From contig NZ_FMUH01000001.1 in assembly GCF_900101025.1 (NCBI RefSeq), positions 62,001-126,000 of the forward strand: a stretch of DNA of 64,000 nt. The letters run 5' to 3'. The number at the start of each line of letters is the position of its first letter. Position 1 is the first letter of the stretch. The notes under the pieces are model-generated. The model had not been told where the DNA came from. It ran no database searches and saw nothing but the letters and a program-made list of their open reading frames with translations. This document shows positions 9,307-64,000 of the stretch, piece by piece. This stretch comes from Klenkia marina (GTDB lineage: Bacteria; Actinomycetota; Actinomycetes; Mycobacteriales; Geodermatophilaceae). The position numbers and the translations under genes were made by a program.

Positions 9307-11330
9307 CACGAGATCCCGGGAATCAGAGACACGAGCAGGTCGATGGCCTTGATCCCGACGAAGGGCAGCACCACGCCGCCGACGCCGTAGACCAGGAGGT
9401 TGCGGGAGAGCAGCGCGGACGCCGTCCCGGGTCGGTACCGCACACCGCGAAGGGCGAGCGGCACCAGCGCCACGATGATCAGCGCGTTGAAGACGACCGC
9501 GGAGAGGATCGCCGACTCCGGCGAGTGCAGGCGCATCACGTTGAGCGTGTCCAGCCCGGGGAAGACGGGCGCGAACATCGCCGGCAGGATCGCGAAGTAC
9601 TTGGCCAGGTCGTTGGCGATGGAGAACGTGGTCAGCGAACCGCGGGTGATCAGCAACTGCTTGCCGATCGCCACGATCTCGATGAGCTTCGTGGGGTCGC
9701 TGTCGAGGTCGACCATGTTGCCGGCCTCCTTCGCCGCCGACGTCCCGGTGTTCATCGCGACGCCGACGTCGGCCTGGGCGAGCGCCGGGGCGTCGTTCGT
9801 GCCGTCCCCGGTCATCGCGACCAGCCGGCCGCCCTCCTGCTCGCGAGCGATGAGCGCCAGCTTGTCCTCCGGCGTCGCCTCCGCCAGGACGTCGTCCACC
9901 CCGGCCTCGGCGGCGATCGCCCGGGCCGTGGCCTCGTTGTCGCCGGTGATCATCACGGTGCGGATGCCCATGCGCCGCAGCTCGTCGAAGCGCTCGCGCA
10001 TCCCGGGCTTCACGACGTCCTTGAGCTCGATGACGCCGAGCACCCGGGCGCCGTCCGGACCGTTCTCGGCCAGCACCAGCGGCGTCCCACCGGCGGTCGA
10101 GATGTCCGCCACGACCGTCCCCACCGAGGGGTCCACGGAACCCTCGAGGCCACGGACCCAGGCCTGCACGGCCCCGGCGGCACCCTTGCGCAGCTGCCGG
10201 CCCCCGGGCAGGTCGACCCCGCTCATCCGGGTCTGCGCGGTGAACTCCACGAACTCCGCCCCCGCCGGGCGGTCGACCGCTCCCCCGCCCAGGACGACGA
10301 CCGACCGGCCCTCCGGCGTCTCGTCGGCCAGCGACGCGAGCACGGCGGCGCGGGCCACCTCGTCGTCCGACGCCGAACCGACCGGCACGAAGCGGGCGGC
10401 CTGCCGGTTGCCCAGCGTGATCGTGCCGGTCTTGTCCAGCAGCAGCGTGCCGACGTCGCCGGCCGCCTCCACCGCGCGGCCGCTCATGGCCAGCACGTTG
10501 CGCTGCACCAGCCGGTCCATCCCGGCGATGCCGATCGCGCTCAGCAGCGCGCCGATGGTGGTCGGGATCAGGCAGACCACCAGCGCGATGAGCACGGTCA
10601 TCGACTGCCCGGCGCCCGCGTAGACCGCCACGGGCTGCAGCGTCACCACGGCGAGCAGGAACACGATGGTCAGCGACGACAGCAGGATGTTCAGCGCCGT
10701 CTCGTTGGGCGTCTTCTGCCGCGCGGCGCCCTCGACCAGCGCGATCATCCGGTCGACGAACGTCTCGCCGGGCTTGCTGGTGATCTGCACGACGATGCGG
10801 TCCGAGAGCACCGTCGTACCGCCGGTCACGGCGCACCGGTCGCCGCCGGACTCGCGGATCACCGGGGCGGACTCCCCGGTGATGGCCGATTCGTCGACAC
10901 TGGCGATCCCCGCCACGACGTCGCCGTCGCCGGGGATCTGCTGCCCGGCGACCACGACCACCCGGTCACCCGGGCGCAGGTCGGCGGCCGCGACCTCGCG
11001 GCCGTCCTCCGTGATCGCGACCGCGGTGGTCTTGGCCCTGCGCAGCGAGGCGGCCTGCGCCTTGCCACGGCCCTCGGCCACCGACTCGGCCACGTTGGCG
11101 AACAGCACGGTCAGCCACAGCCAGACCGCGATGGCCCAGCCGAACACCGTGGGTTCGAGCACGGCCAGCACGGTGGAGAACACCGAGCCGACCCAGACGG
11201 TGAACACCACGGGCTGGCGCACCAGCCCCCGCGGGTCGAGCTTGCGCACGGCGCCGGCCAGCGCCGGACCCCACTCGATGGTCGGCCGGGTCTGCTCGGG
11301 GGCAGGGGTCCGGTCCAGGACGGCGGTCAT
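9306..11330 (-). CDS. kdpB: Potassium-transporting P-type ATPase, subunit B
   Basis: A 674-residue P1A-type ATPase that hydrolyses ATP to drive K+ uptake by KdpA. Key motifs: ITGESAP (actuator loop, about residue 150), [13 protein letters not shown] with the phosphorylated Asp (about 300), KGA in the nucleotide domain, VMITGDN and [18 protein letters not shown] (hinge). Length and motif order are standard, with no lesion. It overlaps kdpA upstream and kdpC downstream by ATGA. Confidence 0.98.
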
Positions 11331-28418: not shown

Positions 28419-28488
28419 GTGATCATGGGGTCGTCGCCGGCGACTCGCCGTCGACCGGCGCGCCCCCGAGCGACAACCCCATGATCAC
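28419..28488. repeat. 70-bp intergenic palindrome with GTGATCATGGGGT arms
   Basis: Arms begin GTGATCATGGGGT and end ACCCCATGATCAC. The match continues after one mismatch (gtcgc/gcgac), and inner CGCCGG/CCGGCG arms form a second stem. It lies between convergent genes, and its right arm contains the stop codon of the epimerase gene at 28485. It may be a bidirectional terminator or a dispersed REP-like unit. No other copy is in the window. Confidence 0.6.
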
Positions 28489-31853: not shown

Positions 31854-31899
31854 CGACGCTGAGGCACCACTCCCGGCCGGAAGTGGTACCTCAGCGTCG
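31854..31899 (-). terminator. Long hairpin terminator after typA
   Basis: Eighteen-base arms (CGACGCTGAGGCACCACT and near-complement, one mismatch) with a 10-base loop lie 33 bases past the typA stop. There is no T-tract. Confidence 0.6.
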
Positions 31900-31931: not shown

Positions 31932-33827
31932 TTACTCGCCGACCTTGGGCTTCTTGTTGCGCTGGCGGCCGCGGACGGTCTGGTCCAGCTCGACCTTGCG
32001 GATGCGGACGACCGTCGGGGTGACCTCGACGCACTCGTCCTCGGCGCAGAACTCCAGCGCCTGCTCCAGGTTGAGCACGCGCGGCGGGATCAGCCGCTCG
32101 AGCTCCTCGGAGGTGGACTTGCGCATGTTGGTGAGCTTCTTCTCCTTGGTGATGTTCACGTCCATGTCGTCGGGACGCGAGTTCTCACCGACCACCATGC
32201 CCTCGTACACCTCGGTGCCGGGCTCGACCATCATCTGGCCGCGCTCCTGCAGCGAGAACATCGAGTAGGTGGTGGCCACGCCGGAGCGGTCGGCCACCAG
32301 GGAACCGGTGGGCCGCGCGCGCATCTCGCCCAGCCACGGCTCGTAGCCCTCGAGCACGTGGTTGAACACGCCGGTGCCGCGGGTCTCGGTGAGGAACTCG
32401 GTGCGGAACCCGATGAGGCCGCGCGAGGGGGCGATGTACTCCATGCGCGCCCAGCCGGTGTCGTGGTGCACCAGGTTCTCCAGCCGGCCCTTGCGGATGG
32501 CCAGCGCCTGGGTCAGCGTGCCGACGTACTCGCCGGGGGTGTCGATGGTGACGCGCTCGACCGGCTCGTGCAGCTTGCCGTCGATGGTCTTGGTGACCAC
32601 CTGCGGGCGGCCGACGGTCAGCTCGAAGTCCTCGCGGCGCAGCTGCTCGACGAGGATGGCCAGGGCGAGCTCGCCGCGGCCCTGCATCTCCCAGGTGTCG
32701 GGGCGCTCGGTGGGCAGCATGCGCACCGAGACGTTGCCGACCAGCTCCTGGTCGAGGCGGTTCTTGATCAGGCGGGCGGTGACCTTCTTGCCCGACTTGC
32801 CCGAGATCGGCGAGGTGTTGATGCCCATCGTGATCGAGATCGAGGGCTCGTCGACGGTCAGCGCCGGCAGCGGGCGCGGGTCGTCGGGGTCGGCCAGGGT
32901 GTCGCCGATGCCGATGTCCTCGATGCCGGCGATGGCGACCAGGTCGCCGGGGCCGGCGCTCTCGGCCGGCACGCGGGTGAGGCCCTCGGTCGACAGCAGC
33001 TCGGTGATCTTGACCTTGGTGATGGTGCCGTCGACCTTGCACCAGGCCACCTGCTGGCCGCGCTTCATCTCACCGGAGTGGATGCGCAGCAGCGCGAGGC
33101 GGCCGAGGAACGGGGAGGCGTCGAGGTTGGTGACCTGCGCGCGCAGCGGCTCCTCGGCGTCGTACTCGGGGGCCGGGATGGTCTCCAGCAGGGTCTTGAC
33201 CAACGGGCCGAGGTCGGGGCTGTCGGGCACCGTGCCGTTCTCGGGCTTGGTGAGCGAGGCCTGGCCGGTGCGGCCGTTGCAGTAGACGATCGGGAACTCG
33301 AGCGACTCGGCGGGCAGGCCGGCGTCCTCGAGGAGCTCCATGAAGAGCTCGTAGCACTCGTCGACGACCTCCTCGATGCGGGCGTCGCCACGGTCGGTCT
33401 TGTTCACCGCGAGGATGACCGGCATCCCCTTGCCGAGGGCCTTGCGCAGCACGAAGCGGGTCTGCGGCAGCGGGCCCTCGGAGGCGTCGACGAGGAGCAC
33501 GACGCCGTCGACCATCGACAGGCCGCGCTCGACCTCACCGCCGAAGTCGGCGTGGCCGGGGGTGTCGACGATGTTGACCACGACGGGGTTGCCCTCGTCG
33601 TCGGCCAGCCGGATGGCGGTGTTCTTGGCGAGGATGGTGATGCCGCGCTCGCGCTCGAGGTCCATGGAGTCCATGACCCGGTCCTGCGTCGTGTCGTTGT
33701 CGGTGCCTTCGCCCTTGGCGCGGCCGAGGGCGCCGGCCTGCCGGAGCAGGGCGTCGACCAGGGTCGTCTTGCCGTGGTCGACGTGGGCGACGATCGCCAC
33801 GTTGCGCAGGTCGTTGCGGGTGGGCAT
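31932..33827 (-). CDS. typA: Translational GTPase TypA/BipA
   Basis: A 631-residue ribosome-associated GTPase. G motifs: AHVDHGKTTL (14-23), RERGITI, DTPGHADFGGE and NKTD. EF-G-like domains follow, with MQGRGELALAILVEQLRREDFEL, then the BipA-specific C-terminal domain (FNHVLEGYEPW, YSMFSLQERGQM, KEKKLTNMRKS). It acts in 50S assembly and stress or cold adaptation. Length is standard. No Shine-Dalgarno is obvious before ATG 33827. Confidence 0.97.
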   Translation of the reverse strand: MPTRNDLRNVAIVAHVDHGKTTLVDALLRQAGALGRAKGEGTDNDTTQDRVMDSMDLERERGITILAKNTAIRLADDEGNPVVVNIVDTPGHADFGGEVERGLSMVDGVVLLVDASEGPLPQTRFVLRKALGKGMPVILAVNKTDRGDARIEEVVDECYELFMELLEDAGLPAESLEFPIVYCNGRTGQASLTKPENGTVPDSPDLGPLVKTLLETIPAPEYDAEEPLRAQVTNLDASPFLGRLALLRIHSGEMKRGQQVAWCKVDGTITKVKITELLSTEGLTRVPAESAGPGDLVAIAGIEDIGIGDTLADPDDPRPLPALTVDEPSISITMGINTSPISGKSGKKVTARLIKNRLDQELVGNVSVRMLPTERPDTWEMQGRGELALAILVEQLRREDFELTVGRPQVVTKTIDGKLHEPVERVTIDTPGEYVGTLTQALAIRKGRLENLVHHDTGWARMEYIAPSRGLIGFRTEFLTETRGTGVFNHVLEGYEPWLGEMRARPTGSLVADRSGVATTYSMFSLQERGQMMVEPGTEVYEGMVVGENSRPDDMDVNITKEKKLTNMRKSTSEELERLIPPRVLNLEQALEFCAEDECVEVTPTVVRIRKVELDQTVRGRQRNKKPKVGE

Positions 33828-50868: not shown

Positions 50869-50923
50869 CACGACGCAGCAGCCGCGCCGCCCCGGTGCGG
50901 GGCGACGCGGCTGCTGCGTCGTG
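50869..50923. terminator. Very long perfect hairpin after the surface-protein gene
   Basis: Eighteen-base perfect arms (CACGACGCAGCAGCCGCG and complement) with an inner GCCCC/GGGGC stem, flanked by further near-complementary CCGCACC/GGGTGCGG. It lies 11 bases past the stop at 50935 on the minus strand. Likely terminator. Confidence 0.6.
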
Positions 50924-62526: not shown

Positions 62527-62895
62527 GTGGCCCTGCTGACCTTCGCAGGCAGGCTGACCGCCGACCCGGTCGTCGACCGGTCCGACCGGACCCTGTCCGC
62601 GGAGTTCGTGGTGGCCGAGTCGACCGGGGCCTACGTCCGGGGTGAGTGGGTGCCGCACGCGGTGCCCACCACCCGGTGGGTGCGCACCCCGCACCAGCTC
62701 ACCGACGCGGTGGCCGCCACCCTGCGGTCCGGCGTCCACGTCGTCGTCACCGGCCGCGAGCACACCGAGCTGCGCGGCCGGCACGAGGTGCGGGTGGTCG
62801 AGGCGGTCCGGGTCGGCGTGCTGCTCGCCGCGGAGCAGACGGTCACGGTGCACCCGCACCCCGGGCCGGGCAGCTGGTGGCCCACGGACGTCTGA
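62527..62895 (+). CDS. Small OB-fold-like protein, possibly SSB-related
   Basis: A 122-residue protein starting at GTG 62527, 2 nt after the MetE-like stop. LLTFAGRLTADPVVDRS, a strand AEFVVAES, TTRWVRTPH and VHVVVTGREHTELRGRHEVRVVEA recall the strand order of single-stranded-DNA-binding proteins, though the signature aromatic residues are not clear. The Pro/Trp end PGPGSWWPTDV is distinctive. Tight linkage with the methyltransferase may be simple co-transcription. Confidence 0.5.
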   Translation: MALLTFAGRLTADPVVDRSDRTLSAEFVVAESTGAYVRGEWVPHAVPTTRWVRTPHQLTDAVAATLRSGVHVVVTGREHTELRGRHEVRVVEAVRVGVLLAAEQTVTVHPHPGPGSWWPTDV

Positions 62896-62902
62896 GCCGT
62901 GC

Positions 62903-63484
62903 TCAGCCGGCCCGGGCCTCGGCGACCTGGGCCAGGGCGACGTCGAGCGAGCGGACGGCACCGTCGGGGTCGACCCGGGCCAGCGCGAACGCGGCCACCA
63001 CCAGCGAGGTGCAGGTGTCGGCGAGCGGCCCGGGATCGCGGGCGGGGAACCGCGCTGCCACACCGCGCTCGAACGCCGTCCGCAGCTCGGCGCGGTAGCC
63101 GGCCACGACGGCGCGCACGGCGGCGTCGGCGCCGATCGGCGCGGTGGCCGCGTTGACCAGCAGGCACCCCTGCCCGGCCCCGGCCGGGTCGGCGGCCGCG
63201 ATCGCCGCCCGCAGCCCGTTCAGGTACCCGACCAGCGCGTCGGGGGCGACGACGTCACCGGTCAGGACGGCGAGGCGCGGGCGGACCACCTCGTCGAGGT
63301 AGCTCTGCACGGCGGCGTCGAAGAGCCCCCGCTTGCTGCCGAACGCGTGGTAGATGCTCGACCGGTTCAGCCCCGTGGCGCGCTCGAGCTCGGGCACGGA
63401 GGCGCTCTCGTACCCGTGGGTCCAGAACACGTCGCGGGCCGCACGGACGGCGGTCTCGGTGTCGTAGGCCTGCGGTCGGGCCAT
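62903..63484 (-). CDS. TetR-family regulator, divergent from the DUF1304 gene
   Basis: A 193-residue TetR protein: RDVFWTHGYESASVPELERATGLNRSSIYHAFGSKRGLFDAAVQ at the N-terminus (only the fold is important here), then a small-ligand domain with CLLVNAAT. The shape resembles NemR/AcrR-type repressors. GGAGGA precedes ATG 63484. A 56-bp inverted repeat in the divergent gap contains -10 boxes for both genes, so the protein likely represses itself and the DUF1304 operon. Confidence 0.9.
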   Translation of the reverse strand: MARPQAYDTETAVRAARDVFWTHGYESASVPELERATGLNRSSIYHAFGSKRGLFDAAVQSYLDEVVRPRLAVLTGDVVAPDALVGYLNGLRAAIAAADPAGAGQGCLLVNAATAPIGADAAVRAVVAGYRAELRTAFERGVAARFPARDPGPLADTCTSLVVAAFALARVDPDGAVRSLDVALAQVAEARAG

Positions 63485-63499
63485 GGTTCCTCCTCGTTC

Positions 63500-63555
63500 T
63501 GGACCTTCCGTTGCAGGATAGTCGGCTCGCGCGCTATCGTGCAACGGTCGGTCCA
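63500..63555. promoter_or_regulatory. 56-bp inverted repeat with divergent -10 boxes (TetR operator)
   Basis: The left arm TGGACCTTCCGTTGCAGGATAG (63500-63521, given here in two parts: TGGACCTTCC and GTTGCAGGATAG) matches the complement of the right arm (63534-63555) except at three positions. TATCCT (63520-63515, minus) and TATCGT (63535-63540, plus) lie in the two arms, so one regulator could shut both promoters. Confidence 0.7.
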
Positions 63556-63571
63556 CAACCCGGAGGTCAGC

Positions 63572-63958
63572 ATGGTCGTCGCAGGTCTGGTGCTCGTCGG
63601 CGTCGCTGCCGCGATCCACCTGTACATCTTCGTGCTCGAGTCGCTCGCCTGGACCGGCGAGAAGGCCCGGGCCACCTTCGGCACCACGCCCGCCGAGGCC
63701 GAGGCCACCCGGTCGATGGCCTTCAACCAGGGCTTCTACAACCTGTTCCTGGCCGTCGAGATCGCCGCCGGCATCGTCGTCGTCGCGGCCGGGGCCACCG
63801 CCGTCGGCGCCACGCTGGTGTTCGTCGGCGCCGGCTCGATGGTCGCCGCCGGGCTGGTCCTGCTGACCAGCGACCGCTCCAAGACCCGACCCGCCCTGAT
63901 CCAGCTCACCCCTCCCCTGCTCGGCATCGCGCTCCTCGCGGCCGGGCTCGCCCTCTGA
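63572..63958 (+). CDS. DUF1304 family membrane protein
   Basis: A 128-residue protein with four helices. AAAIHLYIFVLESLAWTGEK near residue 12, FNQGFYNLFLAVEIAAG and the QLTPPLLGI end are typical of DUF1304. CGGAGG lies 6 nt before ATG 63572. Such genes are commonly found with TetR or MarR regulators and a partner enzyme. Function unknown. It is followed by another start at 63973 in the same direction. Confidence 0.87.
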   Translation: MVVAGLVLVGVAAAIHLYIFVLESLAWTGEKARATFGTTPAEAEATRSMAFNQGFYNLFLAVEIAAGIVVVAAGATAVGATLVFVGAGSMVAAGLVLLTSDRSKTRPALIQLTPPLLGIALLAAGLAL

Positions 63959-63972
63959 CAAGGAGACACGTC

Positions 63973-64000
63973 ATGACCGAGAGCACCCAGATCCAGCTGG
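63973..64000 (+). CDS. Start of a downstream gene (partial, unknown)
   Basis: ATG 63973 with AAGGAG about 8 nt upstream opens MTESTQIQL and runs off the window. It is 14 nt after the DUF1304 stop, so it is probably in the same TetR-controlled operon. Nine residues are too few to name it. Confidence 0.5.

Follow-up and report, generated by a model that had tools for sequence, protein, structure and literature searches.

A predicted bipartite operator of an autoregulated TetR-type switch in front of a DUF1304-reductase operon in Klenkia

The described regulator most similar to the TetR-type protein analysed here is CifR of P. aeruginosa (6nsm, 6nsn, 6nsr), which is closest by sequence, at or near the top by fold and shares the position of Cys107. 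CifR is reported to bind between cifR and its operon and to be released from the DNA by epoxides, with the cif epoxide hydrolase, morB and a gene for a transporter as its targets; a title states that the system uses two binding sites, like the switch predicted here. NemR of E. coli and AltR of Pantoea are reported to be autoregulated TetR proteins in which a conserved cysteine is critical and which control a detoxification target. In the altR promoter, a single perfect 8-6-8 inverted repeat is reported, further boxes being located at other places of the cluster, unlike the two 16-bp sites on overlapping divergent promoters at this locus. CssR of C. glutamicum is reported to be an actinobacterial TetR protein that represses its own gene as well as a divergent operon, the promoters of which putatively overlap; it differs by having one 25-bp motif, TAA(G)TGN13CA(G)TTA, an ABC-transporter as target, and cysteines at other positions that are reported to have no redox role. 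Two dimers per operator region are found for QacR, the cooperative complex of which (1jt0) is a fold match of the TetR protein analysed here, and are likewise reported for CprB. No prior description of the operator presented below was found in the literature searched, which covers few subscription journals.

The locus lies at the end of the window, i.e. the whole stretch of 64,000 nucleotides of Klenkia marina DNA that was analysed. A putative repressor gene, tetR (62903-63484, minus strand, 193 aa), and a divergent gene encoding a DUF1304 protein (63572-63958, plus strand, 128 aa) are separated by an 87-bp gap containing an inverted repeat, and both have a Shine-Dalgarno-like GGAGG (63489-63493, minus strand, for tetR; 63562-63566, plus strand, for DUF1304). 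The partner gene starting at 63973, the identity of which the earlier note had sought, encodes a CurA/PTGR-like NADPH-dependent reductase of 334 aa on the plus strand (L007:1974-2978), of which positions 63973-64000 lie in the window and the remainder beyond it. We consider it likely that the repeat constitutes the bipartite operator of an autoregulated TetR switch controlling the DUF1304-reductase operon, with induction by electrophiles as we infer from the comparison with the systems above.

The TetR protein shows the TetR_N domain (PF00440, 51.2 bits, cut-off 24, 1.1e-13), and its AlphaFold2 model (mean pLDDT 88.4) is all-helical and matches TetR structures. The closest solved sequence is CifR (6nsn; phmmer 1.3e-19, the best of 23), Foldseek places CifR-operator complexes at ranks 1-5 with about 32% identity, and in VIA-align CifR, with a Z of 17.8, is tied with SCO4454 (3g7r) at 18.2; reduced NemR is a fold match with 16-18% identity. 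Sixteen of 75 TetR sequences entered the fold analysis. Cys107 is invariant in all 75 TetR orthologues and aligns to the Cys in the GCL of CifR, which is listed as mutated (C107S) in the title of 6nsm. With CifR being the nearest relative and released by epoxides, Cys107 being invariant, and AltR and NemR being cysteine-dependent, an electrophile-sensing thiol switch is by analogy the likeliest mechanism of this TetR protein.

The reductase contains the domains ADH_N_2 (PF16884, 1.8e-37) and ADH_zinc_N (PF00107), both above cut-off, and scores 344.9 bits against NF058644, the model of the curcumin/dihydrocurcumin reductase CurA, i.e. under the cut-off of 440, so that it is related to CurA and not filed as such; its best solved relative is the Double Bond Reductase 7e4d (1.8e-90). 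The domains, the CurA score below cut-off and the double-bond reductase as best solved relative support the prediction that the 63973 gene encodes a CurA/prostaglandin-reductase-like NADPH enone reductase of the PTGR/CurA medium-chain group. This distinguishes the locus from the CifR system, the operon here consisting of DUF1304 and a CurA-like reductase instead of a cif epoxide hydrolase operon. The DUF1304 protein (PF06993, 111.1 bits, cut-off 26.9, 3.6e-32) is modelled by AlphaFold2, at a mean pLDDT of 95.6, as four long helices forming a bundle, and its hydrophobic sequence indicates that it is probably a small membrane protein. In published expression tables, DUF1304 appears with a log2FC of 0.62 under imipenem in A. 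baumannii, and a further row gives -2.01 for S. aureus with BC; neither row bears on the switch described here. A fold search with the DUF1304 model returned 23 matches at E up to 10 and none at 0.001, so its function is not derivable from the structure. DUF1304 faces TetR in 58 of the 75 loci.

Many TetR regulators bind their ligands non-covalently. This fact, together with the score of the reductase under the CurA cut-off, favours a reading according to which the TetR protein senses a lipid, fatty acid or drug non-covalently, and the substrate of the reductase is an intermediate of catabolism or of fatty-acid metabolism and not a toxic electrophile; the invariant Cys107 may in that case be structural. 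We regard this as the most serious alternative, if a rather doubtful one, as the nearest structures are those of CifR, in which according to their titles Cys107 is among the residues mutated, NemR is among the fold matches, and the reductase type recurs: a CurA-like gene follows or faces TetR in 59 of the 75 loci, and of the 16 loci lacking a CurA match, ten have a quinone-reductase-like frame recognised by eye and six have none in the stretch examined. The loci taken from the genome searches extend 1.5 kb past the match, a missing gene thus being a gene missing from that stretch. At L159, a locus of the TetR encoded away from DUF1304 in the Cellulomonas genomes treated below, the TetR protein faces a 325-aa quinone-reductase-like gene, whose best model, of the PIG3 type, reaches 107.6 bits, below its cut-off of 296.8.

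The earlier note had described two 22-bp arms with three mismatches around a 12-bp centre, and this geometry is borne out, with 19 of 22 positions paired between 63500-63521 (TGGACCTTCCGTTGCAGGATAG) and 63534-63555 (CTATCGTGCAACGGTCGGTCCA). The window contains four repeats of such quality (arms of 22, at least 19 paired, gap of at most 30), vs. 0.13 on averaging over 30 resampled sequences of 64 kb, the control being an order-1 resample rather than an exact shuffle. Elsewhere in the window, we observed a gapless, near-perfect 44-bp palindrome at 31855-31898 (20/22 paired), which overlaps a mechanical plus strand frame and precedes a minus strand frame at 31932-33827; a 22-bp inverted repeat at 50873-50919 (21/22 paired, 3-bp loop), which lies within overlapping mechanical reading frames and is not followed by a T run; and an inverted repeat at 28419-28488 (19/22, gap 26) with the ends GTGATCATGGGG and CCCCATGATCAC, bridging the gap between two minus strand frames.

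Conservation of the arms in relatives, on which the earlier note had made its reading depend, holds for the outer parts and fails for the inner ones. At the positions of the window arms, 14 of 22 are paired in K. soli (L009) and 13 of 22 in a further locus of the genus (L103), a loss that rules out the 22-bp palindrome as the conserved unit, while the 16-bp outer parts stay. Pairing of the innermost 6 bp amounts to 5/6 in the window and to 1/6 in both sisters, and the extended palindrome is thus probably a chance result of the two -10 boxes being alike. Sequence comparison instead suggests as regulatory unit two 16-bp pseudo-palindromes of the pattern TGNAMYGRYCRKTNCA, a left operator at 63500-63515 (TGGACCTTCCGTTGCA) and a right operator at 63540-63555 (TGCAACGGTCGGTCCA), with each being the predicted site of one TetR dimer and the centres being 40 bp apart. 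Among the three Klenkia loci L007 (the locus studied here), L009 and L103, the columns are invariant at 13 of 16 positions in the left and 14 of 16 in the right site, vs. 4 of 24 in the spacer.

We compared 82 TetR loci, drawn from the DUF1304 relatives treated below and from TetR relatives in further genomes. Removal of seven duplicate records of the same genomes left 75 intergenic regions; as these represent 73 distinct strings in which near-duplicates remain, the key counts were repeated on 48 representatives. A palindromic motif search started from random seeds converged on the 16-bp motif TG-N-A-[AC]-[CT]-G-[AG] plus its mirror (17.7 bits) in the 75 regions. In the 48 representatives, a motif model free of any symmetry constraint shows a correlation of 0.983 to its reverse complement; its score is 1289, vs. 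392, 390 and 353 for three shuffled sets. Counted in the same loci on which the motif was trained, at least one site of at least 5 bits is present in all 75 regions, two sites are present in 41, and the weakest best site has 11.8 bits; four sites of at least 10 bits occur in 320,791 bp of flanking DNA. With a Klenkia-free matrix, which gives a ranking that is not wholly independent because its starting matrix had included Klenkia sites, the right operator (19.7 bits) is the best site in the window and the weaker left operator (9.7 bits) the third. The second-best site (14.2 bits at 10504) lies in coding sequence, within a frame which we take by eye to be kdpB-like. A wider regulon in this genome was rejected: the strict operator pattern matches at four places, which include the right arm, and four matches were also obtained with the reversed control.

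The TetR group is distributed patchily, being present in 4 of 396 sampled genomes of the phylum and in 5 of 112 genomes of the family, all five belonging to Klenkia (5/9 of the genus); it is found in 39 of 249 genomes of the family of G324, of which 30 of the 39 TetR matches were taken as loci, and in 22 of 59 genomes of the G306 genus. A plasmid search with the TetR sequence at E up to 1e-25 gave no match.

Both -10 boxes that the earlier note had placed in the arms, TATCCT and TATCGT, are present, and their register relative to the operators recurs in relatives. In the -10-like TATCGT of the DUF1304 promoter (63535-63540, plus strand), the last T doubles as the opening base of the right operator, and in the -10-like TATCCT of the tetR promoter (63515-63520, minus strand) as that of the left operator read on the minus strand. 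A TANNNT hexamer sharing exactly its last base with the start of the rightmost operator is present on the DUF1304/reductase side of 58 of the 75 loci, vs. 14 for the next commonest offset; these 58 comprise 34 of the 41 loci with two sites and 24 of the 34 with one. For the tetR side, the equivalent offset is found in 35 of 75. The register is missing in 17 of 75 loci on the plus strand and in 40 of 75 on the minus strand. The representatives yield 38 of 48 and 26 of 48 for the DUF1304/reductase and tetR sides, respectively, the latter including 21 of 24 two-site representatives. TACTTT and TAGATT, the tetR -10 boxes of L009 and L103, seem by eye to be displaced by one base. Neither promoter was found in a scan with a strict sigma-70 consensus (0 matches), and the -10 assignment is accordingly based on the comparative register.

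Each -10 box is preceded at 18 bp by a -35-like box, TTGCAG at 63511-63516 (plus strand) for the DUF1304 promoter and TTGCAC at 63539-63544 (minus strand) for the tetR promoter, and the TTGCA of the left arm is kept in all three Klenkia loci L007, L009 and L103. The TTGCA of each operator can serve as -35 of the opposite promoter. With the boxes placed in this way, each operator overlaps one -35-like box and one expected start region: for the left operator these belong to the DUF1304 and the tetR promoter, respectively, and for the right operator to the tetR and the DUF1304 promoter.

The centres of paired sites are spaced by 24 bp in 17 loci, 25 bp in nine, 28 bp in six, 40 bp in six, 26 bp in two and 22 bp in one. 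Of the six loci in the 40-bp class, three belong to Klenkia and three to the family of G324. In QacR, the dimers occupy sites that overlap within a single palindrome. The sites at the loci studied here, unlike those of QacR, do not overlap, and a centre spacing varying from 22 to 40 bp argues against a fixed dimer-dimer contact of the QacR type. At the 5-bit threshold, 34 of the 75 loci have a single site, and these include two of the five from Klenkia (L102 and L104); the circuit thus does not require two dimers.

The single-site loci, 24 of 34 of which have their site directly behind the DUF1304/reductase-side TANNNT, and the difference in score between right and left operator in the window are what would be expected if only the right operator mattered, a dimer at 63540-63555 repressing DUF1304 and the left arm being a weak or decaying copy. 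We judge this to be unlikely: the left site retains 13 of 16 columns in three Klenkia loci, unlike the spacer, it scores 14.3 and 14.7 bits in the other two of these, and it stands in the minus strand TANNNT register in nearly all of the two-site representatives, as given above. A mainly structural role of the repeat as cruciform or as terminator or attenuator hairpin, for which a long palindrome adjoining two divergent starts could speak, is very improbable and was rejected, as the scan found no terminator-like site, the extended palindrome is lost in the sister species with the 16-bp sites being kept, and two Gordonia loci keep both sites without any long inverted repeat (9/11 in L052 and 5/5 in L083 being the best).

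The occurrence of the operators was compared with that of the TetR gene. Among the best 80 of 195 DUF1304 relatives, 18 have a divergent TetR and 62 have no TetR relative at the locus; six of these 62 show a site of at least 8 bits within 300 bp upstream of the match, of which three (L010, L016 and L019) reach 12 bits near the DUF1304 gene. In the two Cellulomonas loci L010 and L019, the unlinked DUF1304 gene keeps the operator and TetR is encoded elsewhere in both genomes, with sites in front of these TetR genes (20.0 bits in one, 12.5 and 17.1 bits in the other). The DUF1304-CurA locus of Specibacter cremeus (L016) carries two sites of 20.8 and 12.3 bits, 24 bp apart at about 2938-2977, and despite these two operators upstream of DUF1304 no TetR match was found in its genome. 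In the Klenkia loci L102 and L104, which have no DUF1304 in the locus, TetR faces the reductase and one strong site stays. The genome of K. terrae (L008) shows no TetR match, and its locus is without operator and reductase, with DUF1304 directly behind a methionine-synthase-like gene. Taken together, the predicted operator tends to follow TetR.

Two side observations concern neighbouring genes. By eye, a DsbA/FrnE-like frame lies downstream of the unlinked DUF1304 gene in both Cellulomonas loci, possibly representing another thiol-linked partner. In the window, a 122-aa frame at 62527-62895, situated between the methionine-synthase-like gene and tetR, resembles by eye a single-strand-binding protein and has no match in Pfam; K. 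terrae has no room for such a frame because DUF1304 starts directly behind the methionine-synthase-like gene.

The operators, the fixed -10 register, the linkage to TetR and the identity of the operon are all shown comparatively, and this is consistent with a model according to which two TetR dimers would bind the two 16-bp pseudo-palindromes, each dimer thereby occupying the -35 box of one promoter together with the -10 edge and the start region of the opposite one. As each dimer would touch both promoters, both divergent promoters would be shut together and the repressor would limit its own synthesis. The proposal of the earlier note that one TetR protein covers both arms as two dimers and shuts both promoters gains comparative support in this way, a complete 16-bp site being present in each arm; it is further backed by the site starting on the last base of the -10 box, holding the TTGCA of the other promoter and tending to follow TetR. 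In this model, the TetR protein would bind the operators and repress until a reactive electrophile, presumably an enone, a quinone or an epoxide, reacts with or binds near Cys107 in a mode as in CifR/NemR-type repressors. The induced operon would then reduce the electrophile, and DUF1304 would probably act as a small membrane protein of the same response.

In a wider sense, we tentatively put forward, as a proposal slightly more doubtful than probable, that DUF1304 represents the membrane arm of an actinobacterial electrophile response under a distinct thiol-switch TetR, that the operator follows this TetR even if DUF1304 is unlinked, and that the spacing classes (22-26, 28 and 40 bp) arise from promoter geometry and not from dimer-dimer contact.

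As a summary, what had been seen as a single palindrome becomes a defined operator rule for a TetR group that occurs patchily in several actinobacterial genera. The DUF1304 family is tied to enone/quinone-type reductases, which offers a handle on its function. Provided that the inducer is confirmed, the clean pair of TetR and operator, with its small operon, could be used as a sensor for electrophiles.
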